The position numbers were made by a program, and so were the translations under genes. Source: Bacteroidales bacterium (lineage in GTDB: Bacteria; Bacteroidota; Bacteroidia; Bacteroidales; UBA7960). From it: a DNA stretch of 64,000 bases. Every line of letters begins with the position of its first letter. Position 1 is the stretch's first letter. Location of the stretch: the NCBI GenBank assembly GCA_012521995.1, contig JAAYLH010000113.1, positions 1 to 64,000 on the forward strand. The letters are read 5' to 3'. This document shows, one piece after another, positions 21,417-59,483 of this stretch. Under the pieces are notes generated by a model. It saw only the letters and a program-made list of their open reading frames with translations, made no database searches and was not told the origin of the DNA.

Positions 21417-22337
21417 ATGGAAGGCGAAACCAAAATCCGCGAGATGCAAGCCTTGGTCAGCCTGGTGGATGACCCCGACATTGACGTTTTTCGTGAGGTA
21501 TCGGAAAAGATCCATGGCTTTGGCCCCGACGCCATTCCCTACCTTCAGGATGCCTGGGACAATTGCTTTGACCCTCTTGTGCAAAGCAGGATTGAGACGC
21601 TGATGCACCAGATTCACCTGGACCACATCATCGGGGACCTGAAAAAGGCTTTTGAGAAAGACTGCAAAAACATCTTGCCGGCCTGGATTACTCTTTCAAG
21701 GTATGCGCATCCCGATCTGAGTGACGAAGACATTCAGTTTGGACTCAACCAGATCCGCAAGGACATCTGGCTGGAGCTAAATGACAACCTGACCGCCCTC
21801 GAGCAGGTCAAGGTGTTCAACCACGTGTTTTTTGACATCCACGGGTTTTCGGGAAACATCGACAATTATCATGCGGCAGGCAACACCTATGTCAACCAGG
21901 TGTTGAAAAGCCGCAAGGGCAACCCCCTTTCGCTGAGTGTGATATATATGCTTGTGGCGCAGAGTCTTGACCTGCCTGTGTATGGGGTGAACCTCCCTGA
22001 GCATTTTATCCTTGCCTTTACGGGGAAAGCCTTTGACACCCAGACCATGCGCATGGAGGACAATAAGGTGTTGTTTTATATAAATCCTTTCAGCCGTGGC
22101 ATGGTGTTTTCGTCGGTGGAGGTGGAAAAGTTCATCGAGCGCCTTAATCTGGACCCTGTGCCATCCTATTTTGAGCCCTGCAGCAATTGCGACATTATCC
22201 TGCGGATGATTAACAACCTTATCAATGCTTATGAGACCGATGGGCTGAAAGAAAAGCAGAGGGAAATGGAGCATCTCAGGGCCGTGCTGGGGAAGATCAG
22301 GGGGCAAAACAAAGAACACAAAAAAGGGGACCATTAG
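21417..22337 (+). CDS. SirB1/transglutaminase-like family protein
   Basis: A 306-residue protein. The central block NTYVNQVLKSRKGNPLSLSVIYMLVAQ, followed by LPVYGVNLPEHFIL, matches the SirB1/Transglut_core2 family. The GNP motif stands where true transglutaminases keep a catalytic cysteine, so enzymatic activity is doubtful; no cysteine is seen there. The N-terminal helical part and the lysine-rich tail are less conserved. A strong terminator overlaps its stop codon. Function is unknown. Confidence 0.75.
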   Translation: MEGETKIREMQALVSLVDDPDIDVFREVSEKIHGFGPDAIPYLQDAWDNCFDPLVQSRIETLMHQIHLDHIIGDLKKAFEKDCKNILPAWITLSRYAHPDLSDEDIQFGLNQIRKDIWLELNDNLTALEQVKVFNHVFFDIHGFSGNIDNYHAAGNTYVNQVLKSRKGNPLSLSVIYMLVAQSLDLPVYGVNLPEHFILAFTGKAFDTQTMRMEDNKVLFYINPFSRGMVFSSVEVEKFIERLNLDPVPSYFEPCSNCDIILRMINNLINAYETDGLKEKQREMEHLRAVLGKIRGQNKEHKKGDH

Positions 22338-22351
22338 TCCCCTTTTTTGTT
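22314..22351. terminator. Bidirectional terminator after the SirB1-like gene
   Basis: AAAAAAGGGGAC and GTCCCCTTTTTT form an A/T-flanked stem with a short loop containing the TAG stop codon. T-tracts on both strands fit termination of both the rightward gene and the leftward oxidoreductase operon. Confidence 0.88.
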
Positions 22352-22387: not shown

Positions 22388-23656
22388 CTATGCAACCAGG
22401 GCTTCCTTGATTTTTGCCACAGGCAGTTTTTCGCTCAGGCCTTCTTCTTCAATGGTCTTGAAGAGGGATTCGGTGCTGATGATTCCTGTTTTCAGGGCCA
22501 AAAAGAAGACAGAGAAAATGGAAGCGTTGCGGGCACCCATTCCACGGAAGTCGTGGCAGATGACTTCTGCTCCGGTGGGAGGCACTTCGAGGCTTTCGTC
22601 GATAAAGAGGAAGCCCCCCTGCATTTTTGCAATTCTCTGCTTGTTGTGTGCCAGGCCATCGGCCGAGGTGACGACTACCATGTCGGGCACAGCGATGCCA
22701 TGGAAGTGGATCTCCCTGGGCGAAAGGTTGACCTCAGCGGTGGAGAAGCCAACGCCAACGGTCACGGGATAGCTTCCCTTCTGGGTAATGGAAAGGCCCG
22801 AACGCATGGCTGCCTTGCAAAGGACGTTGGCTGCCAACTGCACGCCTTCCCCTGCTGACCCGCTCAGGATGATCGAAGTGGTTTTCTTCAGGTAGCTTTT
22901 GAACTTGGGGGCAATAGGATCGACTTTCTCCAACAGGTTTTCTGACTTCCGTCCCTGTTGGGGGCTGAAGGGAGGCCTTTGGTTGAGCCATTCGCCCATT
23001 TCCTTGCCTGAGCTCTCGGCAATTTCGCTGAGTTTGCGTCTGGGGTTCAGCTTCATCCCATAGCTTGGGCAAATCTCCAGGACTTCCACCAGGGAGAATC
23101 CTTTGGTGGAGAATGCCACTGCGAGTTTGTCGGAGATGTCACCAATACCCATTACCCTGCTGATATAGCTGGCTCCTGCGGTATGGGCCAAGGCGCAGAT
23201 GTCGTAGCCGAAGAAGGGGTTGCCGTCGCGTGAGGTGGTGGTGTTAAAGCCATGGGGGGTGAGGCCGCTTGTTTGTCCGCCCGTCATCCCGTAAAGGAAG
23301 TTGTCGTGGACCACCACGGTCATGTTGAGGTTCAGGCGCGATGCTTCCATGAGGTGCTGGAGGCCGATTGTGGAGCCGCCATCGCCAATAAAGACGATCA
23401 CCTTTTTGCCCGGTTCTTCCATTCCGAAAGTGATGCCTGCGCCAAGAGCAGACGAACGGCCGTGCAAGCCGTGGACGGTGTGGGTATTGAGGCATTTGTC
23501 GATGATTCCGTGGCAGCCAATGTCGGTGACCATGATCACATCCAGTGGGTTGAAGCCCAGTTTCTCGAGGGCCCTGGTCGTGTTTTTGGCTATCAGGTCG
23601 TGGCCGCAGCCCTTGCAGAACGGAAGGGCGTCAGTTTTCAGAAAGGGAATGTTCAT
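22388..23656 (-). CDS. 2-oxoacid:ferredoxin oxidoreductase, beta and gamma domains fused
   Basis: A 422-residue fusion. The beta (thiamine diphosphate) domain covers about 1-240, with GDGGSTIG at 91-98 and the four cysteines C14, C17, C48 and C196 expected for the proximal 4Fe-4S cluster (CKGCGH, DIGCHG, EICPSYG). The gamma domain covers about 258-422 and begins IILSGSAGEGVQLAANVLC. In KorA-type enzymes gamma is normally at the N-terminus of alpha, so this order is unusual. The enzyme decarboxylates a 2-oxoacid to acyl-CoA and reduces ferredoxin. The ATG overlaps the alpha-subunit stop by four bases. The substrate is not known. Confidence 0.85.
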   Translation of the reverse strand: MNIPFLKTDALPFCKGCGHDLIAKNTTRALEKLGFNPLDVIMVTDIGCHGIIDKCLNTHTVHGLHGRSSALGAGITFGMEEPGKKVIVFIGDGGSTIGLQHLMEASRLNLNMTVVVHDNFLYGMTGGQTSGLTPHGFNTTTSRDGNPFFGYDICALAHTAGASYISRVMGIGDISDKLAVAFSTKGFSLVEVLEICPSYGMKLNPRRKLSEIAESSGKEMGEWLNQRPPFSPQQGRKSENLLEKVDPIAPKFKSYLKKTTSIILSGSAGEGVQLAANVLCKAAMRSGLSITQKGSYPVTVGVGFSTAEVNLSPREIHFHGIAVPDMVVVTSADGLAHNKQRIAKMQGGFLFIDESLEVPPTGAEVICHDFRGMGARNASIFSVFFLALKTGIISTESLFKTIEEEGLSEKLPVAKIKEALVA

Positions 23657-24771
23657 GCTGTGACCTCCTTCATAATTTCCTCCGGGCTGATCATTTTGCC
23701 CAGGCTGCCAACGAAGGCAACGTTAGCGGGAGTGTTCTCCCCAAAGAGGAGTTTCCCGAATTGATGATTGATGTTTTCTTCGGCGATGACCACCCGCTCA
23801 TGTTTCATCATCAGTTCCCTGTAGAATGCGGGGGTTGGGATGAGGGTCCTGGGGATAAGCAGGGAAACTTTATCCCCGTTGTTTCTTAGCATTTCGGTGG
23901 CATCGAGGGCTGCCGAGGAGGTGATGCCATAGGCAACAATGAGCTTCTTGGCCCCTTTTTGTTCGTCGAGTGAGTAGTAATAATGTGATTTCATTCTCTG
24001 GATCACCTTTTCTTCGAGTCTGCGGGTGTTGGCCATGGATTCTTCATTGGAATGCTGAAGGATGCCTGTCTGATCGTGGGTAGAAGCATTCAGCCTCACC
24101 TGGTGTTTGTTCTGGGTGACCGGCAGGAAATCAGGCACGAAGTCGGTAGGCTTGTAGGATTTATATTCGCACTCCAGGTCATAATGCTTACGTTCTACCG
24201 GAATGACTTTCGCCAGGGTGCCCATGTCAAAGCTTTTCTGGGTCATGACCTCTTCCTTGGAGGTAAGCAGCACTACCGGGGTTCTGAGGTTAATGGCGAC
24301 TTCGGCAGCTTTTGCTGCAAGGTCCCAGCAGTCGTTGAAGTCGGCGGTGGCCAACACGGGTATTGGGTGTGCGCCGGAGATCATTCCCCTGAGCAGGAGC
24401 AGGTCGCCCTGGGCGCCGCAGGTGGCAGTGCCCGTTGCAGGCCCGAGGCGCTGAACGAGGATGATCACCATAGGCAGTTCCATCATATAAGCCATATTGA
24501 TGGACTCGAGCATCAGGGCAAATCCAGGGAAAGAAGTGGCCGTGACCGGCAGTTGTCCCGTTGCCGAGAGGCCACTCATCCATTGCAGGGTGGTGATCTC
24601 GTCGGGGGCGGGGAGCATGAGTTTCAAGCGCTGACTGCCATACTGGTACAGCAGGTTGGCGGGCGTGATTGGATATCCTATAAAGGCATCAGCCCCTGCG
24701 CGGGCCAGGGCCTCGATCATCAGACGCGAGCCATCGATGAGGACCCTGTTCCCTTTAGTCTTTTCTTGCAT
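23653..24771 (-). CDS. 2-oxoacid:ferredoxin oxidoreductase, alpha subunit
   Basis: Alpha subunit (pyrimidine-binding and domain II) of the oxidoreductase. 372 residues; it starts directly with GSRLMIEALARAGADAFIGYPITPANLL and lacks an N-terminal gamma domain. The loop MVIILVQRLGPATGTATCGAQGD fits KorA-like enzymes. A domain-II core (KKLIVAYGITSSAALDATEML) and a C-terminal region (RVVIAEENINHQFGKLL) are present. It overlaps the upstream CoA-transferase gene by 17 bases and the downstream beta-gamma gene by four, so the three are translated together. Confidence 0.88.
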   Translation of the reverse strand: MQEKTKGNRVLIDGSRLMIEALARAGADAFIGYPITPANLLYQYGSQRLKLMLPAPDEITTLQWMSGLSATGQLPVTATSFPGFALMLESINMAYMMELPMVIILVQRLGPATGTATCGAQGDLLLLRGMISGAHPIPVLATADFNDCWDLAAKAAEVAINLRTPVVLLTSKEEVMTQKSFDMGTLAKVIPVERKHYDLECEYKSYKPTDFVPDFLPVTQNKHQVRLNASTHDQTGILQHSNEESMANTRRLEEKVIQRMKSHYYYSLDEQKGAKKLIVAYGITSSAALDATEMLRNNGDKVSLLIPRTLIPTPAFYRELMMKHERVVIAEENINHQFGKLLFGENTPANVAFVGSLGKMISPEEIMKEVTA

Positions 24772-25975
24772 AAACTACTCCTTTATTGATTAAGTTGTCA
24801 ATTTGGGTTTCCGCAAAGCCCAGCAGCTCCCTCAGGATCTGCCTTGTGTGCTGGCCATAATGTGGAGGGGGTGAGAGCTGTTCGACGGTCATGGGGTCAT
24901 TTGTGCTGAAAGCCACCGAGCGCACCCCCTTGATGGCCATCCCAGAAGGGTATTGCCCCTTTAAGATCATCCCTTCCGATTCAGGAGCTTCGAAAACTTC
25001 TTTCATATTGAACACGCCCCCTGCGGGGATACGCTTCTCCTCCAGGATTTGGAGGATTTCTTCGCGCTTGTATTTGCCGATGCAATCCTGGATGATGCCG
25101 TTGATTTCGGCCTTGTGTACCACCCGATCCTGGTTGCGGGCAAACCTGGGGTCTTCGGCCAGTTCAGGTCTGCCCAGTGCTTTTACCAGTTCGCGGTATT
25201 GTTTGTCGGTGCCTGCGGCCACTACAATTCCTTTTTGATCTGCGGTATGGAAAATGGTGCCATAGGGGACGATGTTGGGGTGGTCGGAGCCCATGCGCTG
25301 TGGGATGGTTTGTCCAACCAGCCAGTTGGAAGCCTGGTTTGCCAGGGAGGAAATGCCGGCCCTGAAGAGGGAAGCCTCAATGAATTGACCTTTTCCGGTT
25401 CGTTCGCGATGGATCAGAGCCAGGAGGATGGCTTCCTTTACCTGGTGGGCAGCGAGGAGGTCCATCAGGGCCACGGGCATTTTTATGGGAGGGCCGCCTT
25501 GTTCGCCGTTCATATAGGTAAATCCGCTTTCAGCCTGGATAATGGCATCGAAGCCTGCCCTGCGGTTTTTCAGGCCGTAACCGGTGATGTGCGAGTAGAT
25601 CAGCTTTTCGTTAAATTTTTTCAGGGTAGGGTAGTCGACCTTAAGCTTTTCGGCATCGCCGGGTTTGTAGTTAACCAAAACGATGTCGCAATGCCCGGCC
25701 AGATTATAAATCAACTGCAGGCCTTCGGGCTTGCAGAGGTCGGCTGCGAAGGAGGCCTTGCCCCAGTTGACGCAGGAGAAGTAGCCTGAGATATCTGTAT
25801 CTGCGGTTTCTTTGGGGAGTTTCCAGTTGCGGGTGACGTCGCCCTGGGTGGTGACGTTCTCGACCTTAATGACCTTGGCGCCCAGTTCCGCAAAGAACAT
25901 TCCCACGCTGGGCCCCGCCAGTACCGCGGCCAGCTCCAATACTTTTATTCCCGATAAGGGCAAATCATTTTGCAT
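24755..25975 (-). CDS. CaiB/BaiF family CoA-transferase
   Basis: Class III CoA-transferase that moves CoA between carboxylic acids. 406 residues. The N-terminal block LPLSGIKVLELAAVLAGPSVGMFFAELGAKVIKVE is characteristic. The catalytic aspartate is D172 in MPVALMDLLAAHQVKEAILLALIHRE, followed by RTGKGQFIEASLF. Formyl-CoA, carnitine and aryl-lactate transferases belong to this family; the sequence alone does not fix the substrate. Its position between a symporter and a 2-oxoacid oxidoreductase suggests it handles the same carboxylate. Confidence 0.88.
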   Translation of the reverse strand: MQNDLPLSGIKVLELAAVLAGPSVGMFFAELGAKVIKVENVTTQGDVTRNWKLPKETADTDISGYFSCVNWGKASFAADLCKPEGLQLIYNLAGHCDIVLVNYKPGDAEKLKVDYPTLKKFNEKLIYSHITGYGLKNRRAGFDAIIQAESGFTYMNGEQGGPPIKMPVALMDLLAAHQVKEAILLALIHRERTGKGQFIEASLFRAGISSLANQASNWLVGQTIPQRMGSDHPNIVPYGTIFHTADQKGIVVAAGTDKQYRELVKALGRPELAEDPRFARNQDRVVHKAEINGIIQDCIGKYKREEILQILEEKRIPAGGVFNMKEVFEAPESEGMILKGQYPSGMAIKGVRSVAFSTNDPMTVEQLSPPPHYGQHTRQILRELLGFAETQIDNLINKGVVYARKD

Positions 25976-25979
25976 ATTT

Positions 25980-27470
25980 CTATAGTTCAGTTTTTGGGTC
26001 TTCCGAACGTGAATTCAGGTTTTTAGGTTTACTTTTCCCTATGAAGTTGCCGATGATGATGAACAGAACGGCAGCGGCAATGGCCACATAGGTGTCTTCA
26101 ATGTTGAGGATTTCGAATCGCCGCAGGATAATGTTGGCAAACACTGCAAGGGTGCCCCCGATGAATGCCAGCCTGACGCCTTCGATTGTAATCCAACCCC
26201 GGCTGTATATGCCCATAACTATTACGATGGCCCCAATGGCACGGATGCCATAGGAAATATAGGCTGTATCGAGGATGGCCCCTGAGCCGTAATAGGCGAG
26301 AGGAATTGTAAAAAGGTTGACCAGGATTACGAGTTTACGGGCTGTGGAGATGAGCTTTTGGTCGGGAGCGGTTTTGTTGATCAGGCCGTGATAAATATCC
26401 TTGGTGGCGATGGTGACCACTGCAAAGTTGACCGGTCCTACCGTTGAGAGTATTGCAGCGAGGATTCCTGCAAGGGCAATGCCGCCCAGGACAGGATGGA
26501 TGAATTCAGGGGTGACCATCAGGGTGGGTAACACCATTTTTGGGTTGATCACCTGGTGGGCGGGATCCCATAAGGGGCTTGCAGGGCCTTGAAGGCTGAA
26601 GAAATTACCAGTTTTGGCAACGAGGCCAAGAATTGCCACGAGGATTCCAAAGGGGGCGATGATGAAAGCGGAGAGGACGGCCGATTTTCGGGCAATGGAA
26701 GCATTGCGGGCGGCAAAGATGGGCTGGATGCTGGCCTGTCCTGCCATGCCACCGAGCACACCACCCAGGATAAGGCTCCAGGCGTAGCTTAAGCCCCCGC
26801 TAAAGGGGTTGTACAGGTTGGTAGGCGAGCCCTGGGCAATCATGGCATCCTTGAGGGCGCCAAGGCCTCCCACTTCGTGCACACCCAGAAAGGTCGCAAG
26901 CCCGATGCCGAAGAACATTACCAAAACATGAATGATTCCGGTGATTGCCAGGGCGTGCATTCCGCCAATATAAGTGTAGATGGTGATGACCACGGAAGAG
27001 ATGATGACCGATTGGAGCCAGGGGGTTCCAAACATGGCTGAGATGACGCTGGAGGCGGTTTGCAGCTGGACAAAAGCCAGGATGATGTATGCAAAAAGGA
27101 AGGCAATGGCAGAAATGGCACGGGCGCGTTTGCCGAACAGGTTCTCCAGCATCTCGCTAACCGTATGCACGTTGTTTTCGCGGTAGTGACGGGCTACGGT
27201 AAAGCCTATGATGATCATCCCTACGGCAGTGGAGATGTTATAAAGGATGGGTTGCAGGGTTCCCGAGGTAAAGGCTTTTTCACTTACCCCGATGGTGCTC
27301 ATTCCGCCGAGCCATTCGGAAGCCACTACCACAGCACAGGCAACAATGCCCAGGTTGCGTCCTGCAACGAGATAATCGGCAGCGGAACGGCTGGCCACTT
27401 TTTTGGTTAACAGGGAAATCAGGGTGATCAGGACAAAATAGGCAACAACAATCAGCAAATAGGTGTTCAT
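25980..27470 (-). CDS. Sodium/solute symporter (SSS family)
   Basis: A polytopic inner-membrane protein of 496 residues with hydrophobic segments throughout, in the range of 13-helix SSS transporters. Family features are AADYLVAGRNLGIVACAVVVASEWLGG near the N-terminus, EMLENLFGKRARAISAIAFL, and LAAILSTVGPVNFAVVTIATKDIYHGL. The short C-terminal tail is charged. It is the first gene of the operon, four bases before the CoA-transferase. It probably imports a carboxylate with sodium; the substrate is inferred from the neighbours only. Confidence 0.85.
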   Translation of the reverse strand: MNTYLLIVVAYFVLITLISLLTKKVASRSAADYLVAGRNLGIVACAVVVASEWLGGMSTIGVSEKAFTSGTLQPILYNISTAVGMIIIGFTVARHYRENNVHTVSEMLENLFGKRARAISAIAFLFAYIILAFVQLQTASSVISAMFGTPWLQSVIISSVVITIYTYIGGMHALAITGIIHVLVMFFGIGLATFLGVHEVGGLGALKDAMIAQGSPTNLYNPFSGGLSYAWSLILGGVLGGMAGQASIQPIFAARNASIARKSAVLSAFIIAPFGILVAILGLVAKTGNFFSLQGPASPLWDPAHQVINPKMVLPTLMVTPEFIHPVLGGIALAGILAAILSTVGPVNFAVVTIATKDIYHGLINKTAPDQKLISTARKLVILVNLFTIPLAYYGSGAILDTAYISYGIRAIGAIVIVMGIYSRGWITIEGVRLAFIGGTLAVFANIILRRFEILNIEDTYVAIAAAVLFIIIGNFIGKSKPKNLNSRSEDPKTEL

Positions 27471-27611: not shown

Positions 27612-27641
27612 CAAAAATAAAGAAATAAAAGCACAAGCAAA
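27612..27641 (-). promoter_or_regulatory. Promoter of the symporter/CoA-transferase/oxidoreductase operon
   Basis: On the minus strand TTTG (27641-27638), 18 bases, then TATTTTTG (27619-27612). The leader to the symporter ATG would be about 135 bases; no regulator site was recognised in it. Confidence 0.6.
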
Positions 27642-29122: not shown

Positions 29123-30589
29123 TTAGTATCCAACAGGGCTTCCCACGCGAATCATTGCGCAGCGGAAGCCAATGTCGTTGGTAGCTTCGTTTTGGTCGAG
29201 GAAGCGGCGGTTGCCGGGGACGATCCAGTATACGCGGTCTTTCCAGCTGCCGCCCTTGTAAACACGGGCTTCGTCGTTGATGAGGCTGGAGATGCTGTAT
29301 TCGTACATAATTTTTTCAGGATCTTCGCCATCTTCATCGGCGAAATAGATGCTTGACATCAGGTCGCCATCGCGGTAGCCGATGTTGTCGGCGTAGCGGT
29401 AGTTGCGGCGGGTAACATTTTCTTCCGTGGTAACATCTCGGGAAATAAGTCTTCCGAATTCATCCTTTGGGACGGGGTTGCCTTCCGCATCAAGTTCCAG
29501 GGTTTGAAAAACGTTACCACGGTAGGGCCGGAAATCGGAGACGTCTTCATGAGAAAGAGGTCTATACACATCCAACACCCATTCGCTGACGTTGCCGGCC
29601 ATGTTATAAAGTCCATAGTCGTTAGGCCAGTAGGCATAAACGGGCACGGTAGCTTCACCTCCATCGTTCAGGTTGCCTGCAACGCCCATATAGTCACCGC
29701 GACCGCGCTGAATATTGGCGAGGAAAATGCCCATGGTTTTTCTTTCGCTGCTGCGCACGTTGTGCCCGCTCCAGGGGTAGAGGCGGCGTTCAACAACGCG
29801 TTCGTAAACGGTGTTGCCGATCAAGCCGAGGGCGGCAAATTCCCATTCAGCCTCGCTTGGCAGGCGGTAGGAGGGGAGCAGGATCCCATCGGTCCAGCGG
29901 ACCTGGCGTTCGCCGGTTCCCCTGGGGTCAAGGTCGCGCATACCTTTCCTTACCATGCCTTCGTATTGCCCTGCAAGATAAGCCTCGGTATTAAAGTTGT
30001 TTTCATTTCTTTGATCAGGATCCCAGTCGAGGATGCCTTCACGGATCAGGATCATTTCGTTGACCCTGTCGGTACGCCAGGAGGCATATTCGGAAGCCTG
30101 AACCCAGCTTACCCCGACGACTGGGTAGTCATTGTAAGCAGGGTGGCGCAGGTAGTTTTGAACGAAGGGTTCGTTGTAGGCAAGGGGGTCGCGCCAAACC
30201 AGGGTGTCGGGCAAGGCCTTACGGTATACTTCGGGATAGGTCTCTCCGAAAACCCGATCGATCCAATACAGATATTCCAGGTAGTCGAGGTTTCGAACCT
30301 CGGTTTCGTCCATATAAAAGGAAGAGACAGTAACCCTGCGGGGGATGTTGTTCCAGTCGAACATGACATCCTGCTCGGTACGTCCCATCACGAAGGTACC
30401 CCCTTCAATAAAGACGAGACCAGGTCCGGTTTCCTGTTCTTGAGTGCTGGCAACTTCGAAGCCGCCTGTTTTAGAATCGTTATAAAGCCATCCAGTTGTG
30501 GGGGAGGACTGCTTTTTACAGGAGAAAAGGAATGCAGATGCCAAAATGGCCACAGAAACTGCAATCAGACTTTTGGGATTCCTTGACAT
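29123..30589 (-). CDS. gldJ: Gliding motility lipoprotein GldJ
   Basis: An outer-membrane-associated lipoprotein needed for gliding and type IX secretion stability in Bacteroidota. 488 residues: a lipobox LFSC with the cysteine at about residue 24, then a formylglycine-generating-enzyme-like (SUMF1) domain without evidence of enzymatic use. Blocks visible are FIEGGTFVMGRTEQD, RVTVSSFYMDETEVRN, YPVVGVSWVQASEYASWR, LPSEAEWEFAA, NVSEWVLDVYRP and RVYKGGSWKDR. The final GFRCAMIR is the usual end of this domain. It follows the PorP/SprF gene by about 30 bases and likely shares its transcript. Confidence 0.92.
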   Translation of the reverse strand: MSRNPKSLIAVSVAILASAFLFSCKKQSSPTTGWLYNDSKTGGFEVASTQEQETGPGLVFIEGGTFVMGRTEQDVMFDWNNIPRRVTVSSFYMDETEVRNLDYLEYLYWIDRVFGETYPEVYRKALPDTLVWRDPLAYNEPFVQNYLRHPAYNDYPVVGVSWVQASEYASWRTDRVNEMILIREGILDWDPDQRNENNFNTEAYLAGQYEGMVRKGMRDLDPRGTGERQVRWTDGILLPSYRLPSEAEWEFAALGLIGNTVYERVVERRLYPWSGHNVRSSERKTMGIFLANIQRGRGDYMGVAGNLNDGGEATVPVYAYWPNDYGLYNMAGNVSEWVLDVYRPLSHEDVSDFRPYRGNVFQTLELDAEGNPVPKDEFGRLISRDVTTEENVTRRNYRYADNIGYRDGDLMSSIYFADEDGEDPEKIMYEYSISSLINDEARVYKGGSWKDRVYWIVPGNRRFLDQNEATNDIGFRCAMIRVGSPVGY

Positions 30590-30620
30590 AGAGGTGTTTT
30601 TTGAATGTGTACAAAAATAA

Positions 30621-31607
30621 CTAAAAACTCGGACAGTTTAGTATGCGATAGCGCAGGTTTTTGGACTTGCAGTGCAAATTCAGTAAAACACTTATTTCGT
30701 GTGCTCCGTGGAAAATGCCTGAAAAACCCGATAGTGAATGATCATAGCTGTAGGCTACCCGGTATTTCCCCTGGTTGAGCCCCAACATAAAAATCAGGGT
30801 TTCTGGGAGGCGGAAATCCTGGCGCAGCCATACCCCTGCAATTATTTTAGAGACTCCGGCATACAAGCCATAATTAATACGATTGAACGGAGCCTGGTGC
30901 TGAAATATTATGTTTGGTGAAAAAAAGAAACTTTCTTCACGTTGATATGCCGGGCCGTGTTGCCCCAAAGGGATGTGAAATCCGAGGTGTGCAGTAAACT
31001 TTATGGGGAGGGGGTGTTCGCCAAAAAGGCTTTCTTCGGGTCTTGTGAGGTGGTGGATGGCCGCTCCGCCATAAAAGCGTTCATTATATAACAGTATACC
31101 GGCAGCAAAGTCGGCTGCATGTCTCCAGGTTTGCCCGGGAGGGGTTTCCGTAATGGGCAGGGTTTCTCCGGTGGCTGGGTCGAATTGGTCGGGAAAGACC
31201 AGGTTGTTCCAGTTCAGGTCTTTTCTCAGGTATCCTGCCTGGGCTCCAAAATTGAGATGCAGGTCACGGGTGATCCGGAGGTGGAGGCTGTAGATTGCAC
31301 TGATGTGGTTGCGCATGATCAGCCCGCCCTGGTGATCGCTGGTGGCCAGAATGCCCAGGCCACCCATCAGGGCTTCCACAGGCTGATCGTAGGAGAAGTT
31401 AAAGGTGGAAAAGGTCCCAAAGTCAGGATAGGGCTGGTTACGGTAATTGAACACCAGGCGTGTGCATTCGTAGGTGCCTGCAAAAGCCGGGTTTAAATAA
31501 GTAGGGGTGGAGAAATGCTGGGAGAAAATGGCATCCTGCCCTGTGGCTTTAAAAGCACAGGTCAGGGTAACAAAAATAAATACGAACCGAATATTTGCCT
31601 TTTCCAT
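30621..31607 (-). CDS. PorP/SprF family type IX secretion outer-membrane protein
   Basis: A 328-residue outer-membrane protein with an N-terminal signal peptide (FVFIFVTLTCAFKATGQ). The family start QDAIFSQHFSTPTYLNPAFAGTYECTRLVFNYRNQ is clear. Repeated amphipathic strands (LHLRITRDLHLNFGAQAGYLR, WNNLVFPDQFD) and the C-terminal RVAYSYDHSLSGFS motif fit the 14-strand barrel family. PorP/SprF proteins anchor type IX secreted adhesins or take part in secretion. It is immediately upstream of gldJ and divergent from porU. Confidence 0.9.
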   Translation of the reverse strand: MEKANIRFVFIFVTLTCAFKATGQDAIFSQHFSTPTYLNPAFAGTYECTRLVFNYRNQPYPDFGTFSTFNFSYDQPVEALMGGLGILATSDHQGGLIMRNHISAIYSLHLRITRDLHLNFGAQAGYLRKDLNWNNLVFPDQFDPATGETLPITETPPGQTWRHAADFAAGILLYNERFYGGAAIHHLTRPEESLFGEHPLPIKFTAHLGFHIPLGQHGPAYQREESFFFSPNIIFQHQAPFNRINYGLYAGVSKIIAGVWLRQDFRLPETLIFMLGLNQGKYRVAYSYDHSLSGFSGIFHGAHEISVLLNLHCKSKNLRYRILNCPSF

Positions 31608-31759
31608 TAAAGGGTGATTGCTTTATTCGCTAATACTTTAACGTCAAAATCGGGCAATTGTTACGATGTGAGGGAAAATCATCGATGTACCACACTGCAG
31701 GTAATGTTTAGCGTATGGATTTTGGAATATTTTTTGAAAAGGGGTTTGAAAAATATTGA

Positions 31760-31791
31760 TTTAAAAAAAACGTTCTAAACAAGTACCTTTG
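31760..31791 (+). promoter_or_regulatory. Candidate promoter of porU
   Basis: TACCTTTG at 31784-31791 matches TAnnTTTG. TTTA at 31760-31763, 20 bases upstream, differs from TTTG by one base. It implies a leader of about 90 bases containing inverted repeats. Confidence 0.55.
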
Positions 31792-31808
31792 CTTCCTGTT
31801 ATATTTCG

Positions 31809-31868
31809 GGGCTCAATAAATTAAAGTGTACTGCTCACGGTTGGCCGCGAGCTATAGGGGCTGAGCCC
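31809..31868 (+). other. Structured leader upstream of porU
   Basis: GGGCTCA (31809-31815) pairs with TGAGCCC (31862-31868), and within it GCTC (31833-31836) pairs with GAGC (31849-31852). No poly-T follows, so it is not a terminator. It lies in the predicted 5' leader, 17 bases before the porU ATG. No known riboswitch class was recognised. Confidence 0.45.
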
Positions 31869-31885
31869 AGAAATCTATTATAGAA

Positions 31886-34800
31886 ATGAAGAAAAAGAGC
31901 TTTTCCCTTCTGTTTTTACTGGTGTTTCCGATCCTGCTATTGGCTCAGGAGAAAGGGCGTTCGATCAGCTTAAGCTGGCAAGCACCAGAAAGGATTACTC
32001 CTGCCCAGGATTATCACATAGACCTCATGAAGTTCTCTGGCGCTGTTTATGGGGACTCGCTTGAGCATATTCCTATGTTTACCTACCGGGTGAAAAATAC
32101 GGTGCCGCATTTTAAATCGGTATTCAGCTTGGGTAATGAAGTGTTTGTGCCTGTAAGCATGGAAGAACAGCGCATCCTTGAGGAGGCCGGCTTCGTGGAC
32201 ACGGAGATTATCCTGTACCAGGGGCAAAATTTGGTTCGGAAGGAAGCTTATTCCGTGGTATCTTTCTTTCCCATCCGCAGGAAGCCTTCTTCAGGGGCTT
32301 ATGAAAAACTGGTTTCATTCGAATTATTGGAGGAGACTGTTTATGATGCCACCATCACTTATGAACCCATACAGGAGTATGTCTCGAATTCAGTGCTTTC
32401 AAGTGGTAGCTGGTATAAAATTTGTGTGGATGAAACAGGGATTTACCAACTGACGCATGCTGACCTGAATGATTTAGGGGTTAATACTGGAGGGCTGCAA
32501 AAGAATAATATCAGGGTCTTTGGACACCGGGGAGGGATGCTTCCGGAAGACAGCAGCGCCCCTCGCATCGATGACCTGGAAGAGGTGCCTCTTTTGGTTT
32601 CGGGAAGCCAGAGCGGAAGTTTCAACCAGAATGATTTTGTCCTTTTCTACGGGGAATCACCAAACCAATGGATCTTTGACCCCTCCACGAAAGTGTTCAA
32701 TCATCAGTTGCACCTTTATGCCACGGAAACCTGTTATTTTCTGACCACCGACAATGGCCCCGGAAAAAGAATCACTGCCCAGGAAAATCTTTCCGTAACT
32801 CCAAGCCATACTGTTACCACGTTTCAGGATTATGCCTTTCACGACCGTGAGCTTCAGAACCTGATAGGCAGTGGGCGGATCTGGTTTGGAGAAGTTTTTG
32901 ACGCCACCCTGAACCGGGAGTTTGTGTTCAGTTTTCCTGACCTGGTGTTGAATGAGCCTGCAAGGCTAAAGTCATATGTGGCAGCCCGTTCCACAGAAAA
33001 CAGCACATTTTCGGTTACGGCAGGGAATGGGCAGATGGTGCAGTCGGTTAACAGGATATTCATTTCCAACTACAATGGTCCGCATGCCAACATCTCGGTG
33101 GATTCCTTATGGTTTAACCCAACAGAGCCGAACCAAGTGAAGGTTGGCCTGACCTATAACAGGCAAGTGGCCGGATCGAGGGGATGGCTGAATTATTTAG
33201 CCTTGAACGTGACCAGACAACTTCGCTTCAACGGGCCCCAGATGGCTTTCCGCAATGTTCATGTAAACGGGGAAGGCAATATTGCTCAATACAACCTGGG
33301 CAATGCCACCAGCCAACTGCGGGTGTGGGATGTCACTGATCCGTTTGCTGTCAGGGAGCAGCAAACCAGTATCAGCGGGAATGTCCTGTTGTTCAGGCAG
33401 ACTTCAGATATGATGCGTGAGTTTGTTGTTTTTGATGGCAGCTCTTATAAAAGACCCAGGAAGGCAGGGCAGGTGGAGCATCAGAATCTGCATGCCATGC
33501 AAACTTCGGATATGATCATCGTAGTGCCTGATTTTATGAAAGCAGAGGCCCAGCGTTTGGCGGACTTCCGTTCGCAGCACGATGGCTTGAGTGTTTCGCT
33601 GGTGACTACAGCACAGGTTTATAATGAATTTTCATCAGGCGCTCCTGATATTGCCGCCATCAGGAATTTCATGAAAATGTTTTATGATCGGGCGGATACG
33701 GAGGCACAAGTGCCCCGTTATCTGCTGTTGTTTGGGAATGGAACCATCGACAACCGCGACCTGCTGGGTTTTGGGGGCAACCCCATCCCTACTTTCCAGA
33801 GCCTGAACTCACTGCAACCGGACCGTTCTTATATGACTGATGACTTTTTTGGGCTACTTGACGATGGAGAAGGACAGGACGCAAACGGGAACCTGGACAT
33901 CGGAATCGGACGCCTGCCTGTCAGGACCCTTGAAGAGGCCATGTCGGTAGTAGATAAGATCATCAGGTATGATCAGCGCATTCCCGGGTTGAATCCCCTG
34001 GAGGAAAACATGCAGAACATTGGGGTCATTTCGAATTATGCTGACTGGAGGAACCTGGTGGTATTGATTGCCGATGACCAGGATAACAACACCCATATAA
34101 AGGATTCAGAAACCCTGGCAGGGATTATGGACTCACAGTTTCCACGGTTTAATGTGGATAAGATTTACCTTGACGCCTATCAGCAGATAACCCTTGCAGG
34201 TGGCGCCCGTTATCCTGATGTAAATCAGGCCATCAATGACCGGGTTAATCAGGGGGCTTTGCTGATTAATTATATCGGGCACGGGGGGATTATGGGCCTT
34301 GCTCACGAGCGTATCGTTACATTTGATGATATTGCCACCTGGAACAATTTTTATAATATGCCTGTATTTATGACGGCAACCTGTGAGTTTTCCAGTTTTG
34401 ATCACCCCAATCCGGATGATGTCACTGCAGGGGTGAGGATTTTTATGAAGCCTGACGGAGGGGCCGCCGCCTTGTTCACCACCACCCGCTTGGCCTGGTC
34501 GGGTCCTAACCTGACCCTGAACAGGAACTTTATGAATGTGGCCTTTGAGCGTGATGAGCAGGGGCAGTATTACCGTTTGGGTGACCTGATCAGGCTCTCT
34601 AAGGTGAACAGCACAGGGCAGCTTGAGCACTGGCGTATACGGAACTTTGTATTGCTTGGCGACCCCTCTATGCAAATGGCATATCCGCAATACCAGGTAA
34701 TTACAGAAAACGTTACAGATACCATTAGGGCTTTCCAGGAAGTTACCATTAGCGGGTTTATTGCCGATGAGGCAGGAAACCCTGTCCCGGGATACAAGGG

Positions 34801-35743
34801 AGTTGTCTTTCCGAGTGTGTATGACAAGAAAATGAATTACACCACTCTTGGACAAGATGCAGACAGCCAGCCATTGGATTTCACCCTAAGGAATTCACTG
34901 CTTTATAAAGGAAAGGCAAGCGTTACAGATGGCCGGTTTAGTTTCTCCTTTATTGTTCCAAGGGATATTGCCTATAATTTTGGACAGGGTAAGATTACCT
35001 ATTATCTTGATAATGGTGTTTCTGATGGCAATGGCTATTTTGATGACTTTATCATTGGAGGAAGCCTGGCCAATTACGATCCTGATAATGAAGGGCCCGA
35101 AATCATGCTATACCTGAATGACACTTCGTTTGTTTCAGGGGAGACCACCAATCCGAATCCGGTTTTGCTCGGCTTGTTGTTTGATGAAAGTGGCATTAAT
35201 ATTACCGGGAGGATTGGACACGACATTGTGGCTATCCTCGACAACGAGACTTCCCATCCCTTGGTACTAAATAATTTTTTTGAAGCTGACCTGGATGATT
35301 TTCAAAGGGGACAGGTGGTCTATCCCTTCTTTGGGTTGTCTGAAGGGCGTCATACCCTGTCACTCAGGGCCTGGGATATTCACAATAATCCATCCACTGC
35401 CACCATTGAATTTATCGTCAGCCGAACGGCTGCCCTTGCCCTGGAGAATCTGATGAATTATCCCAATCCGTTCCAGAATATCACGCATTTTAAATTCACG
35501 CATAACCAGCCCTTCTCAGAGCTGGATGTGAAGATTGAAATATTCGACCTCAGTGGACGCCTGATGCAAACCCTTGAAACTACGGTGAACTCGCCCGGTT
35601 ATCAGTCGCCTCCCATTCCCTGGGATGGAAAGGATAGTGAAGGAAAGACCATTGGCAACGGGATTTACCTTTACCGGCTGATTTTGCAATCACCCGACGG
35701 GAATGTTTCAACCCTTACTCAAAAGCTTGTCGTATTGCGTTAA
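31886..35743 (+). CDS. porU: Type IX secretion system sortase PorU
   Basis: A cell-surface protease of family C25 that removes the C-terminal signal of type IX cargo and attaches cargo to lipopolysaccharide. 1285 residues with a signal peptide (LLFLLVFPILLLAQ). The catalytic histidine is H799 in LINYIGHGG and the catalytic cysteine C833 in FMTATCEF. The region after about 950 contains beta-sandwich domains, and the C-terminal ~90 residues form a sorting-domain-like segment (NYPNPFQNITHFKF, then WDGKDSEGKTIGNGIYLYRL). Its length fits PorU. It is followed by porV, its partner in the attachment complex. Confidence 0.95.
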   Translation: MKKKSFSLLFLLVFPILLLAQEKGRSISLSWQAPERITPAQDYHIDLMKFSGAVYGDSLEHIPMFTYRVKNTVPHFKSVFSLGNEVFVPVSMEEQRILEEAGFVDTEIILYQGQNLVRKEAYSVVSFFPIRRKPSSGAYEKLVSFELLEETVYDATITYEPIQEYVSNSVLSSGSWYKICVDETGIYQLTHADLNDLGVNTGGLQKNNIRVFGHRGGMLPEDSSAPRIDDLEEVPLLVSGSQSGSFNQNDFVLFYGESPNQWIFDPSTKVFNHQLHLYATETCYFLTTDNGPGKRITAQENLSVTPSHTVTTFQDYAFHDRELQNLIGSGRIWFGEVFDATLNREFVFSFPDLVLNEPARLKSYVAARSTENSTFSVTAGNGQMVQSVNRIFISNYNGPHANISVDSLWFNPTEPNQVKVGLTYNRQVAGSRGWLNYLALNVTRQLRFNGPQMAFRNVHVNGEGNIAQYNLGNATSQLRVWDVTDPFAVREQQTSISGNVLLFRQTSDMMREFVVFDGSSYKRPRKAGQVEHQNLHAMQTSDMIIVVPDFMKAEAQRLADFRSQHDGLSVSLVTTAQVYNEFSSGAPDIAAIRNFMKMFYDRADTEAQVPRYLLLFGNGTIDNRDLLGFGGNPIPTFQSLNSLQPDRSYMTDDFFGLLDDGEGQDANGNLDIGIGRLPVRTLEEAMSVVDKIIRYDQRIPGLNPLEENMQNIGVISNYADWRNLVVLIADDQDNNTHIKDSETLAGIMDSQFPRFNVDKIYLDAYQQITLAGGARYPDVNQAINDRVNQGALLINYIGHGGIMGLAHERIVTFDDIATWNNFYNMPVFMTATCEFSSFDHPNPDDVTAGVRIFMKPDGGAAALFTTTRLAWSGPNLTLNRNFMNVAFERDEQGQYYRLGDLIRLSKVNSTGQLEHWRIRNFVLLGDPSMQMAYPQYQVITENVTDTIRAFQEVTISGFIADEAGNPVPGYKGVVFPSVYDKKMNYTTLGQDADSQPLDFTLRNSLLYKGKASVTDGRFSFSFIVPRDIAYNFGQGKITYYLDNGVSDGNGYFDDFIIGGSLANYDPDNEGPEIMLYLNDTSFVSGETTNPNPVLLGLLFDESGINITGRIGHDIVAILDNETSHPLVLNNFFEADLDDFQRGQVVYPFFGLSEGRHTLSLRAWDIHNNPSTATIEFIVSRTAALALENLMNYPNPFQNITHFKFTHNQPFSELDVKIEIFDLSGRLMQTLETTVNSPGYQSPPIPWDGKDSEGKTIGNGIYLYRLILQSPDGNVSTLTQKLVVLR

Positions 35744-35817
35744 GATGAATAAATAGCCTGCTGATAACAAAAGGATGGGATATTCGTTTAACTACAATAT
35801 GGAAGGCTTTTATTCGT

Positions 35818-35825
35818 TATATTTG
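35818..35825 (+). promoter_or_regulatory. -7 element of porV
   Basis: TATATTTG matches TAnnTTTG. It lies about 160 bases before the chosen porV ATG, so porV can be expressed apart from porU. No TTTG was found at the expected distance. Confidence 0.4.
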
Positions 35826-35984
35826 CATCCCGAAAAAAGGGGCTCATTTTTTGGTTTATGAAATTAACTAACATGTCATTTCTTGAGCAACCCGCAAGGG
35901 TATTTATTAACAGTGAAAATTAATTTAGCATTGAAGAACAATTACTCGAGAAATCGCATAAAAAGTATTTTTAATAAAATTCAC

Positions 35985-37193
35985 ATGAAGGATAAGATTA
36001 ACAAGGTTTTGCTTGTTTTGGTGATGTTGGTTTTGCCTTTTGGGCTTTTTGCACAGGATTATACCGATGTATTGGGTCAGCGGTTGAACACCATTACAAC
36101 TGCGGTGCCATTTTTAATGATTGCACCGGATTCGCGTGCAGGTGCTATGGGAGATGCTGGAGTTTCCTCATCGCCCGATGCCAATTCCATGCACTGGAAC
36201 CCTGCCAAATATGCATTTATTGAGCAGGATATGGGTTTTGCCATGAACTATACCCCCTGGCTGCGGGCCCTGGTCCCCGACATTAACCTCTCCTACCTGA
36301 GTGGGTTTAAGCGCCTGGATGACCTGCAAACCCTCGCGTTCTCGCTAACTTATTTCTCTCTTGGAGAAATCAACTTTACAGATGCTGCCGGGGAATTTCT
36401 CTTTCCCGTGAAACCCAATGAGTTTTCGGTAGATGTGGCCTATGCCCGTAAACTGGGTGAACACATCTCAGGTGCCATTACCACCCGTTTCATATACAGC
36501 AACCTGACTCAGGGGCAATTTGTCGGCAGTGTTGAAACCAAGCCAGGCATGGCGCTTGCAGCTGATGTTTCTGCATTTTATACCCGAGAAATGGATATTG
36601 GAAGGACTCCCTCCATTTTCTCAGCCGGGGTAAATATCTCCAATATTGGGAACAAGATTTCCTATTCAGATGAGATCAATGCCAACTTCATTCCCATCAA
36701 CCTCCGTCTGGGACCCTCGCTTACATTCATCCTGGATGATTACAACCAGTTGAGCTTTATGGTTGATATTAATAAGTTGCTGGTACCAACGCCACCGATT
36801 TATGCCCGTGATGACTTAGGACAGCTCATTATTGGTGATGACGGGGAATATGTGATTGATTCGGGGAAAGACCCGAACCGCTCGGTGGTAGCGGGCATCT
36901 TTGGTTCCTTTTCGGATGCCCCCGGCGGATTCAGGGAGGAATTGAATGAATTGACCTATTCGGTGGGTGCTGAATACTGGTACGATAAGCAATTTGCCAT
37001 CCGTGCAGGTTATTTCCACGAACATAAGACCAAGGGGGACCGTAAATACGTCACCCTGGGCATTGGCTTGAAATATAATGTATTTGGGCTGGATTTTGCC
37101 TACCTGGTGCCCCTGGCCCAGCGCAGTCCCCTGGAAAACGTTTTGCGTTTTACCCTGCACTTTGACTTTGATGCCCTTCAGCGCGAACAATAG
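35985..37193 (+). CDS. porV: Type IX secretion outer-membrane protein PorV (LptO)
   Basis: A FadL-like outer-membrane barrel that shuttles cargo between the translocon and PorU. The ATG at 35985 is chosen because it begins a clean signal peptide (MKDKINKVLLVLVMLVLPFGLFAQ); an upstream TTG at 35883 would add 34 poorly plausible residues. The protein then has 402 residues. The motif DSRAGAMGDAGVSSSPDANSMHWNPAKYAF is the PorV hallmark. The C-terminus ends in barrel strands. A terminator follows directly. Confidence 0.93.
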   Translation: MKDKINKVLLVLVMLVLPFGLFAQDYTDVLGQRLNTITTAVPFLMIAPDSRAGAMGDAGVSSSPDANSMHWNPAKYAFIEQDMGFAMNYTPWLRALVPDINLSYLSGFKRLDDLQTLAFSLTYFSLGEINFTDAAGEFLFPVKPNEFSVDVAYARKLGEHISGAITTRFIYSNLTQGQFVGSVETKPGMALAADVSAFYTREMDIGRTPSIFSAGVNISNIGNKISYSDEINANFIPINLRLGPSLTFILDDYNQLSFMVDINKLLVPTPPIYARDDLGQLIIGDDGEYVIDSGKDPNRSVVAGIFGSFSDAPGGFREELNELTYSVGAEYWYDKQFAIRAGYFHEHKTKGDRKYVTLGIGLKYNVFGLDFAYLVPLAQRSPLENVLRFTLHFDFDALQREQ

Positions 37194-58760: not shown

Positions 58761-59483
58761 TTATAGGTTGAGTAAATCTTTCATTGTAAAAACGCCTTTT
58801 TTCTTGCACACCCACTGGGCGGCCAGGAGGGCGCCCCGGGCGAAACCGGTCCGGTTGTGGGCGGTATGCCTGATTTCGAGGGTGTCTTCGGGGCCTTTCC
58901 ATTCTACCCGATGGGTGCCCGGCACTTTGTCGATGCGCAGGGCTTCTATGGGGATCTCGGTAGGACTTTGGGTTTCATCCCTGAGTTTCCAGGTGTTGAA
59001 ACGCTGATTGTGGTCTATGATGCCGTGGGCCAGGACGATGGCTGTGCCGCTGGGGGCGTCGAGTTTTTGGACGTGGTGTGTTTCGCTGATGAAGGGCTGA
59101 TAATGGGGGAAGCCGTTGAGCAGCTCTGCCAGGCGGCGGTTGATTTCGAACAGGATGTTGACGCCGGGGCTGAAGTTGGAGGCATAAAACAGGGTTTGGT
59201 TGTTGGCCAGGCAAATCATGCTCACTTCGGGAAGGCGGCTGTGCCAGCCCGTGGTGCCGCATACTACGGGGACGCCGGCATCGAAGCAACGGAAGATGTT
59301 GTTGACGGCCGTGTCGGGAGTGGTGAACTCGATGGCCACATCGGCACCCGAGGGAAAGCAGTTCCAGTCGTTTTCATTATCGACTTTACAGGCAATTTGA
59401 TGGCCTGCTGCCAGGGCTTGCATTTCTATTTCATGCCCCATCTTGCCGTAACCGATAATTGCTATTTTAAGTGGTTTTTCCAT
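58761..59483 (-). CDS. dapB: 4-Hydroxy-tetrahydrodipicolinate reductase
   Basis: NAD(P)H-dependent reductase in the diaminopimelate and lysine pathway. 240 residues, typical. The dinucleotide motif is IIGYGKMGHEI at about 9-19. The active-site block SETHHVQKLDAPSGTA carries the catalytic histidine and lysine. CGTTGW of the N-terminal domain is present. Ten bases separate its stop from the lepB ATG, and two bases separate its start from the previous stop. Confidence 0.95.
   Translation of the reverse strand: MEKPLKIAIIGYGKMGHEIEMQALAAGHQIACKVDNENDWNCFPSGADVAIEFTTPDTAVNNIFRCFDAGVPVVCGTTGWHSRLPEVSMICLANNQTLFYASNFSPGVNILFEINRRLAELLNGFPHYQPFISETHHVQKLDAPSGTAIVLAHGIIDHNQRFNTWKLRDETQSPTEIPIEALRIDKVPGTHRVEWKGPEDTLEIRHTAHNRTGFARGALLAAQWVCKKKGVFTMKDLLNL

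Follow-up and report, generated by a model that had tools for sequence, protein, structure and literature searches.

The window analysed here, a stretch of 64,000 nucleotides from a Bacteroidales genome, contains four open reading frames on the minus strand that encode a sodium:solute symporter (SSS family), a class III CoA-transferase, and the alpha and beta-gamma proteins of a 2-oxoacid:ferredoxin oxidoreductase (OFOR). The operon and its predicted signals are, in order of transcription:

27612..27641, minus strand: predicted promoter TTTG-N18-TATTTTTG, Bacteroidota -33/-7 type (pattern scan)
25980..27470, minus strand: sodium:solute symporter (SSS family), 496 aa, first gene of the conserved set (PF00474)
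24755..25975, minus strand: class III CoA-transferase, 406 aa (PF02515; Asp172 alignment)
23653..24771, minus strand: OFOR alpha subunit, domains I and II, 372 aa (POR_N, 116 bits, and PFOR_II, over the cut-off)
22388..23656, minus strand: OFOR beta-gamma fusion, 422 aa (PF02775 and PF01558, both over the cut-off)
22318..22350, minus strand: intrinsic-terminator-like stem-loop of 15 pairs, after the last gene

The coordinates confirm the tight packing reported in a preliminary description of this DNA: a 4-bp gap between the symporter and CoA-transferase genes, a 17-bp overlap between the CoA-transferase and OFOR alpha genes, and a 4-bp overlap between the alpha and beta-gamma genes. That description also placed all four genes behind one promoter, with which our predictions agree. 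The predicted promoter lies 142–171 nt upstream of the symporter start codon, and the terminator-like stem overlaps the end of a convergent gene (21417–22337). Among 24 loci, 7 have a motif of the TTTG-N18-TATTTTTG type upstream of the symporter gene, whereas shuffles gave an expectation of 0.13. The upstream motif and downstream stem are evidence for a single transcription unit. No Rfam element was found near the operon.

A conserved four-gene unit

A gene-neighbourhood search for the four-gene set, as proposed in the preliminary description, found it recurring in varied surroundings. The flanking genes, judged by eye to include MurF, CinA, signal peptidase, anhydro-MurNAc kinase and an amidohydrolase, vary from locus to locus and gave no clue to the substrate in the loci that we read. 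The set is also present in the cultured species Perlabentimonas gracilis (L035). The CoA-transferase and alpha genes overlap in 25/25 measurable loci, and the alpha and beta-gamma genes abut or overlap in the same proportion (25/25). As this overlap recurs at all measurable loci in differing contexts, the arrangement is a conserved four-gene unit and not a product of chance; the constant overlap of the CoA-transferase and OFOR genes also makes a shared acyl-CoA most likely. Oxidoreductase homologues regularly found apart from the symporter and CoA-transferase had been named as grounds for rejecting the unit; they occur only among the more distant L086–L103 and in two near relatives, L033 and L039. 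A molybdoenzyme gene adjoins the OFOR in L039; a search for a connection between it and an aromatic pathway gave nothing decisive. The plasmid-borne relatives that we examined were KGOR-type clusters or unannotated.

The symporter scored 131 bits against PF00474 (SSF; cut-off 22.8) and 157 bits against the narrower TIGR00813, under the cut-off of 184. The CoA-transferase matched PF02515 (CoA_transf_3) with 331 bits, over the cut-off, and SUGCT 9br6 with 233 bits; its catalytic Asp172 aligns with an Asp of 9br6 and is invariant in nine sequences. The top curated model was succinate--glutarate CoA-transferase NF052585 (290 bits; next model, 198), but the score falls far short of the equivalog cut-off of 750 bits, so this is not a proven glutarate enzyme. 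The superfamily also includes mesaconate, oxalate and formyl-CoA enzymes. Relatives of this CoA-transferase elsewhere are mostly solitary and adjoin a fumarase-like gene in one family.

A separate oxidoreductase lineage

The alpha subunit carries the YPITP motif, Arg108 and Thr113. The preliminary description of a two-gene oxidoreductase stands for the alpha and beta parts, and we correct the 422-aa gene to a beta-gamma fusion, with a beta domain from residue 1 to about 215 (TPP_enzyme_C, 93 bits) and a gamma domain at about 260–422 (POR/gamma, 36 bits). In the beta part, GDG 91–93, Asn119 and Cys14, Cys17, Cys48 and Cys196 ([4Fe-4S]) are invariant. With the YPITP Thr and carboxylate-binding Arg, the GDG...N motif, four Cys and a gamma domain, the enzyme is a member of the OFOR superfamily. 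The operon contains no gene for a delta/ferredoxin subunit.

Within this superfamily the enzyme represents a lineage separate from KGOR, VOR, IOR and PFOR. The alpha tree sets its clade apart from KGORs and does not group it with IOR or VOR. None of the specific models reached its cut-off: scores were 195 bits for the KGOR model PRK08659 (cut-off 411), 148 for the KGOR model PRK09628 (364), 130 for the VOR model PRK07119 (399; the paralogue L003 from the same genome scored 554) and 36 for the beta part against the IOR model TIGR03336 (651), with no alpha-beta fusion. HMM scores were closer to KorA/OorB than to VorB. The host genome also carries one enzyme each of the KGOR, VOR, IOR and PFOR types, its separate KorAB (L002) having a basic residue at the Lys49 position.

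At this position the beta part has Ile throughout the window clade (motif GCHGI), whereas the compared KGORs have Arg (GCSSR or GCSGR). The Sulfolobus OFOR needs the basic Lys49 for 2-oxoglutarate, and K49I abolishes this activity; however, H. thermophilus KorAB lacks the Lys49 region and still acts on 2-oxoglutarate (PMC5020499), which makes the residue no more than an indication. With Ile here, a distal carboxylate would need to be bound by other residues. All operon-type and neighbouring OFORs, L086–L089 among them, have alpha Arg48 and Arg226 (19/19), which are rare elsewhere; Arg226 sits 4 residues ahead of the equivalent of Asp468a, a residue lining the pocket for the substrate side chain in the Sulfolobus enzyme (PMC5020499). 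The uncharged Ile and the beta motif DIGC/GMTGGQ resemble IOR.

Homologues linked to 2-oxoadipate genes

In three genomes (G368, G093 and G391), a homologous OFOR lies near a homoaconitase gene and a homoisocitrate-dehydrogenase-like gene. The homoaconitases of G368 and G093 scored 867 and 883 bits against TIGR00139 (cut-off 530), and in G093 the three genes share a strand and are separated by about 50 and 10 bp. Distinct large aconitase and LeuC-like genes are present in these genomes as well. A LysW-type (aminoadipate-LysW) lysine cluster occurs in G368 and G093; in G368 it includes a homocitrate-synthase-like gene, LysX (352 bits; cut-off 276) and LysZ (254 bits; cut-off 223). The homoaconitase-side genes are thus not enzymes of the TCA cycle or leucine synthesis, and the substrate of the linked OFORs should be 2-oxoadipate.

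These OFORs (L086–L088) bracket the operon type in a concatenated tree: L087 and L088 fall outside, and L086 falls inside with L057 and L058 (support 99/98); a tree with the operon type as one clade without L086 had a p-AU of 0.028. The lineage is linked by gene context to 2-oxoadipate enzymes, although the neighbours of a homologue of about 50% identity are no proof of substrate. A glutaryl-CoA-dehydrogenase (GCDH)-like gene adjoins the OFOR in G368, and the operon-bearing genomes G010, G051 and that of L036 have genes 70–72% identical to it. In the window genome the best GCDH match was 36%, not a close one, and no aconitase-family gene was found, so neither glutaryl-CoA oxidation nor a homocitrate route is evident there.

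Candidate function and known systems

We tentatively propose that the operon encodes proteins that import a C6/C5 dicarboxylate and turn it over via glutaryl-CoA in a ferredoxin-linked manner. The symporter would import the acid, 2-oxoadipate or glutarate, with Na+; the OFOR would oxidize 2-oxoadipate with CoA to glutaryl-CoA and CO2, reducing free ferredoxin; and the CoA-transferase would swap CoA between glutaryl-CoA and succinate (or acetate), releasing glutarate and retaining the thioester as succinyl-CoA or acetyl-CoA for ATP synthesis. To our knowledge, 2-oxoadipate is not a common extracellular compound, which counts against the proposal. The gene identities and general logic of the preliminary description (carboxylate import, CoA exchange and ferredoxin-linked 2-oxoacid chemistry) hold.

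Its likeness to aromatic or branched-chain Stickland fermentation is not supported. Such a unit would convert an aryl- or branched-chain 2-oxoacid to its acyl-CoA, or activate and carboxylate an imported acid toward an amino acid, as the IOR-like Ile and beta motif might suggest. The window genome also lacks the IlvC, LeuC/aconitase and PheA families, so Leu, Ile, Val and Phe must be obtained in another way. However, the OFOR groups with neither IOR nor VOR, the genome has separate enzymes of both types, and no aromatic pathway gene was recognized next to the operon in the loci read. Presence of the IlvC, aconitase/LeuC and PheA families, scored in 60 genomes, was unrelated to the operon within the family: in family f1, IlvC occurs in 5/24 operon-bearing and 2/12 operon-free genomes, and operon-bearing congeners G002 and G003 possess PheA. 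We accordingly rejected branched-chain or phenylalanine assimilation as a candidate and regard the broader aromatic or branched-chain reading as improbable.

It is also unlikely that succinate or a different C4 acid enters through the symporter, that the CoA-transferase forms succinyl-CoA and that the OFOR interconverts this with 2-oxoglutarate, supplying glutamate in a genome that lacks aconitase. The missing aconitase family, the HMM scores nearer KorA/OorB and the fumarase-like neighbour of CoA-transferase relatives would fit; against it stand KGOR scores far under the cut-offs, the GCHGI motif, the position of the clade in the alpha tree and the presence of L002. The clear assignment to 2-oxoglutarate metabolism that would have contradicted the preliminary description was thus not obtained. 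Some other pair of 2-oxoacid and acid (2-oxobutyrate/propionyl-CoA, C5 branched dicarboxylates and so on), with the homoaconitase linkage of the outgroup pointing to another substrate in that group, is similarly unlikely. The range of the CoA-transferase superfamily and the existence of broad OFORs (PMC5020499) allow for it, but Arg48 and Arg226 are common to the homoaconitase-linked OFORs, and the retained YPITP Thr argues against the oxalate YPIRP type. Least probable is a supply of glutaryl-CoA to a BioZ-type synthase for biotin, a task that CaiB performs in Agrobacterium. Agrobacterium becomes auxotrophic for biotin on losing CaiB, and the same paper tests bioZ of an atypical Bacteroides strain (PMC7645780), but no biotin gene was recognized next to the operon in the loci read, and a dedicated sodium symporter exceeds the needs of a trace cofactor.

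The substrates of OFORs are hard to predict, and Bacteroidota hold several annotated merely as 2-oxoacid or 2-oxoglutarate enzymes; a distinct lineage now has a concrete candidate substrate. We found no ferredoxin enzyme described for the conversion of 2-oxoadipate to glutaryl-CoA. More tentatively still, the clade could represent the first 2-oxoadipate:ferredoxin oxidoreductase, with the operon encoding an anaerobic 2-oxoadipate/glutarate fermentation yielding glutaryl-CoA, reduced ferredoxin and ATP, with Na+-driven uptake. If so, 2-oxoadipate and glutaryl-CoA would be connected by a ferredoxin-coupled route that needs no oxygen, anaerobic lysine-type breakdown would be tied to glutarate, and the operon would be its marker in Bacteroidales.

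Among known systems, KorAB/OorDABC (for example, 6n2n and 8ys5) share the OFOR architecture and are closest by HMM score; the operon enzyme differs in its beta-gamma fusion, its lack of Lys or Arg at the Lys49 position, its separate clade and a Ser rather than Leu at the Asp468 position. Agrobacterium CaiB is likewise a class III CoA-transferase, a succinyl-CoA:glutarate enzyme of biotin and lysine metabolism that is reversible and also accepts acetyl-CoA, and its reaction is that of the best curated model of the operon enzyme; the available text describes no OFOR or symporter partner for CaiB (PMC7645780), whereas the operon enzyme has both. In tyrosine oxidation by Clostridium scatologenes (HpdDEFG, HpdJ and HpdK), an OFOR oxidizes a 2-oxoacid to a product that serves energy conservation, as proposed here, but the next enzymes are an acyl phosphotransferase and a kinase (PMC13285125) in place of a class III CoA-transferase and symporter. 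Mammalian lysine breakdown by DHTKD1 (2-oxoadipate dehydrogenase), SUGCT and GCDH resembles the operon in its predicted metabolites and CoA-transferase family, and some operon-bearing genomes have a GCDH-like gene, although the window genome has no close one. DHTKD1 belongs to an NAD-linked lipoyl complex, whereas the operon combines a ferredoxin OFOR, and hence a low-potential carrier, with a symporter. Judging from sequence, the operon would best be explained as the equivalent, in an anaerobic and ferredoxin-dependent form, of the DHTKD1 and SUGCT pair.

A conserved operon for a symporter, a CoA-transferase and an oxidoreductase

Four minus-strand open reading frames were confirmed at the coordinates of the preliminary description, as was their spacing (a 4-bp gap, then 17-bp and 4-bp overlaps). 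The gene identities were upheld by Pfam matches (SSF, CoA_transf_3, POR_N/PFOR_II and TPP_enzyme_C with POR, each above cut-off), with the correction that the last gene fuses the beta and gamma parts of the 2-oxoacid:ferredoxin oxidoreductase (OFOR).

27641-27612, minus strand: predicted promoter, TTTG-N18-TATTTTTG (pattern match)
25980-27470, minus strand: SSS symporter
24755-25975, minus strand: CoA-transferase
23653-24771, minus strand: OFOR alpha
22388-23656, minus strand: OFOR beta-gamma
22350-22318, minus strand: terminator-like stem of 15 pairs at the operon 3' end

The promoter has the form that we take to be the Bacteroidota consensus, and in 7 of 24 loci a form of this kind precedes the symporter gene, versus 0.13 expected. 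No ferredoxin subunit is found among the operon genes; we therefore infer that free ferredoxin must accept the electrons. Just upstream (29126-37190), GldK-like, PorP/SprF-like and PorV-like genes of type IX secretion or gliding were recognized by eye.

The beta-gamma protein was matched in 25 of 59 related genomes (E below 1e-40), and eight loci, including that of Perlabentimonas gracilis, were drawn from named records. The CoA-transferase, alpha and beta-gamma genes stand side by side in nearly every locus, the symporter is present too wherever the contig extends far enough, and an overlap of 14-38 bp between the CoA-transferase and alpha genes recurs in each of the 25 loci measured. As this order is kept while the flanking genes vary from lineage to lineage, the four-gene unit is probably maintained by selection. 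The operon is genuine and conserved. The exceptions are L033 and L039, in which the OFOR occurs without a CoA-transferase or symporter within the stretch read. In L039 (4018-7203), genes for a DMSO-reductase-family molybdoenzyme and for a ferredoxin-like subunit come after the OFOR of the operon clade; a CoA-transferase is absent.

Class of the oxidoreductase and competing substrates

The window genome encodes four OFORs besides the operon enzyme:

L002: KorAB with the 2-oxoglutarate-type basic residue
L003: VorB-type (554 bits, cut-off 399)
L004: PFOR (by eye)
L005: IorAB-like pair (by eye)

The operon enzyme scores under the cut-off of every curated OFOR model. In the alpha tree, it forms a clade with its fused relatives (SH-aLRT 98) that is separate from the KGOR, VOR, POR and IOR types, although long outgroup branches leave the deeper branching order unsure. 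In the gamma domain (residues about 290-305 of P0001, and relatives), VGVG or QGSG replaces the RGG of the genome's other OFORs.

A role with 2-oxoglutarate as substrate or product is disfavoured by these model scores, by the separate KorAB and by unsuited residues. A study of the Sulfolobus OFOR states that 2-oxoglutarate use requires beta Lys49 and alpha Asp468, and that activity is lost in K49I and D468A (PMC5020499); the corresponding positions are Ile throughout the operon OFOR clade and Ser in the operon OFOR. The residue argument is indicative rather than proof, because the same study describes an H. thermophilus KorAB that lacks the Lys49 region, yet is 2-oxoglutarate-specific (PMC5020499). 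A resemblance to aromatic or branched-chain acid fermentation had also been suggested, and supply of branched-chain or aromatic amino acids was examined through the presence of protein families. Searches of the window genome (97.8% complete) for IlvC (PF01450), aconitase/LeuC (PF00330) and prephenate dehydratase (PF00800) found nothing, and this genome is predicted to need Leu, Ile, Val and Phe, or the corresponding carboxylic acids, from outside; within the operon's family, however, losses of IlvC, aconitase/LeuC and PheA do not follow the operon. Elsewhere in this genome (L161, G000:C89:10000-25000), a cluster of acyl-CoA dehydrogenase, biotin-carboxylase-type subunit, enoyl-CoA hydratase and carboxyltransferase-type subunit resembles, by eye, a leucine/isovalerate breakdown set.

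Homoaconitase-linked relatives

Scanning 395 genomes of the phylum revealed the fused OFOR type in 18 genomes beyond the window genome. In G093 and G391, alpha, beta-gamma, a homoisocitrate-dehydrogenase-like gene and homoaconitase follow on one strand (gaps in the OFOR-dehydrogenase-homoaconitase run of about 50 and 10 bp in G093); in G368, a glutaryl-CoA-dehydrogenase-like gene, a homoisocitrate-dehydrogenase-like gene and homoaconitase are divergent from the OFOR. Homoaconitase scores are 867 bits (G368) and 883 bits (G093) against a cut-off of 530; the top model for the neighbouring dehydrogenase is homoisocitrate dehydrogenase, under its cut-off. These homoaconitase-linked genomes encode a large aconitase and a LeuC-like gene separately, and a cluster in G368, G282 and G093 holds a homocitrate-synthase-like gene, LysX, an ArgC/LysY-type reductase, LysZ and a LysJ-like transaminase (in G368, LysX 352 bits, cut-off 276; LysZ 254 bits, cut-off 223). 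We therefore assign the homo-enzymes adjoining the OFOR to the aminoadipate lysine pathway; the metabolite common to them and an OFOR is 2-oxoadipate. In G368 and G093, the homoaconitase and homoisocitrate-dehydrogenase-like genes lie apart from the lysine cluster, adjoining the fused OFOR. The aminoadipate LysW-type lysine cluster (L156, L157 and L158) belongs to another class of the phylum. In other families the fused OFOR stands in tandem with VOR-type or pyruvate-type sets (L094, L099, L095 and L098).

In a concatenated alpha and beta-gamma tree, the homoaconitase-linked OFORs L087/L088 fall outside the operon-type OFORs and L086, also homoaconitase-linked, falls inside, with L057/L058 (support 99/98). 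Two hypotheses were rejected: operon-type OFORs (with L033 and L039) as one group without L086 (p-AU 0.028), and the three homoaconitase-linked OFORs as one group (p-AU 1.8e-6). Homoaconitase linkage thus brackets the window clade, to be read with caution as the test was named after the tree was seen. Two alpha residues, Arg48 and Arg226, show no variation among 19 operon-type or neighbouring sequences, including L086-L089, and are rare elsewhere. Arg226 lies four residues off the Asp468 position, making it a candidate contact that may contribute to distal carboxylate binding.

CoA-transferase and proposed reaction

No second member of the CoA-transferase family was found in the window genome. 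Among curated models the operon enzyme scores best with succinate--glutarate CoA-transferase (290 bits; runner-up 198), though far under the cut-off of 750, and human SUGCT is among the nearest solved structures (233 bits), slightly behind structures named formyl-CoA transferase and CaiB/BaiF protein. Agrobacterium CaiB catalyses reversible succinyl-CoA:glutarate transfer and accepts succinyl-CoA or acetyl-CoA (PMC7645780). Related enzymes from a different family of the phylum are encoded next to a fumarase-like gene, so a dicarboxylate partner is likely; glutarate specifically is not proven. In L123, L126 and L132, of one family, the fumarase-like gene directly precedes or abuts the class III CoA-transferase.

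We propose that the OFOR would oxidize 2-oxoadipate to glutaryl-CoA, the acyl-CoA common to both enzymes, and that the CoA-transferase would swap the CoA and let glutarate go. No use is evident for running the reaction backwards, with glutarate converted to 2-oxoadipate, in the window genome, which lacks an aconitase-family gene and has, within the window, a DapB-like gene (58764-59483, by eye) consistent with a diaminopimelate route to lysine. Glutaryl-CoA-dehydrogenase-like genes 70-72% identical to that of G368 occur in the operon-bearing genomes G010, G051 and that of L036; the window genome has none at this identity.

In the open-licence literature, 2-oxoadipate, glutaryl-CoA and a ferredoxin oxidoreductase were found together only in docking work. 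Open-licence titles and abstracts on anaerobic 2-oxoadipate or lysine breakdown named no ferredoxin-dependent 2-oxoadipate enzyme, which is weak evidence of absence. Compared with the systems in the open-licence literature searched, the operon is undescribed, and its substrate prediction is specific and testable.
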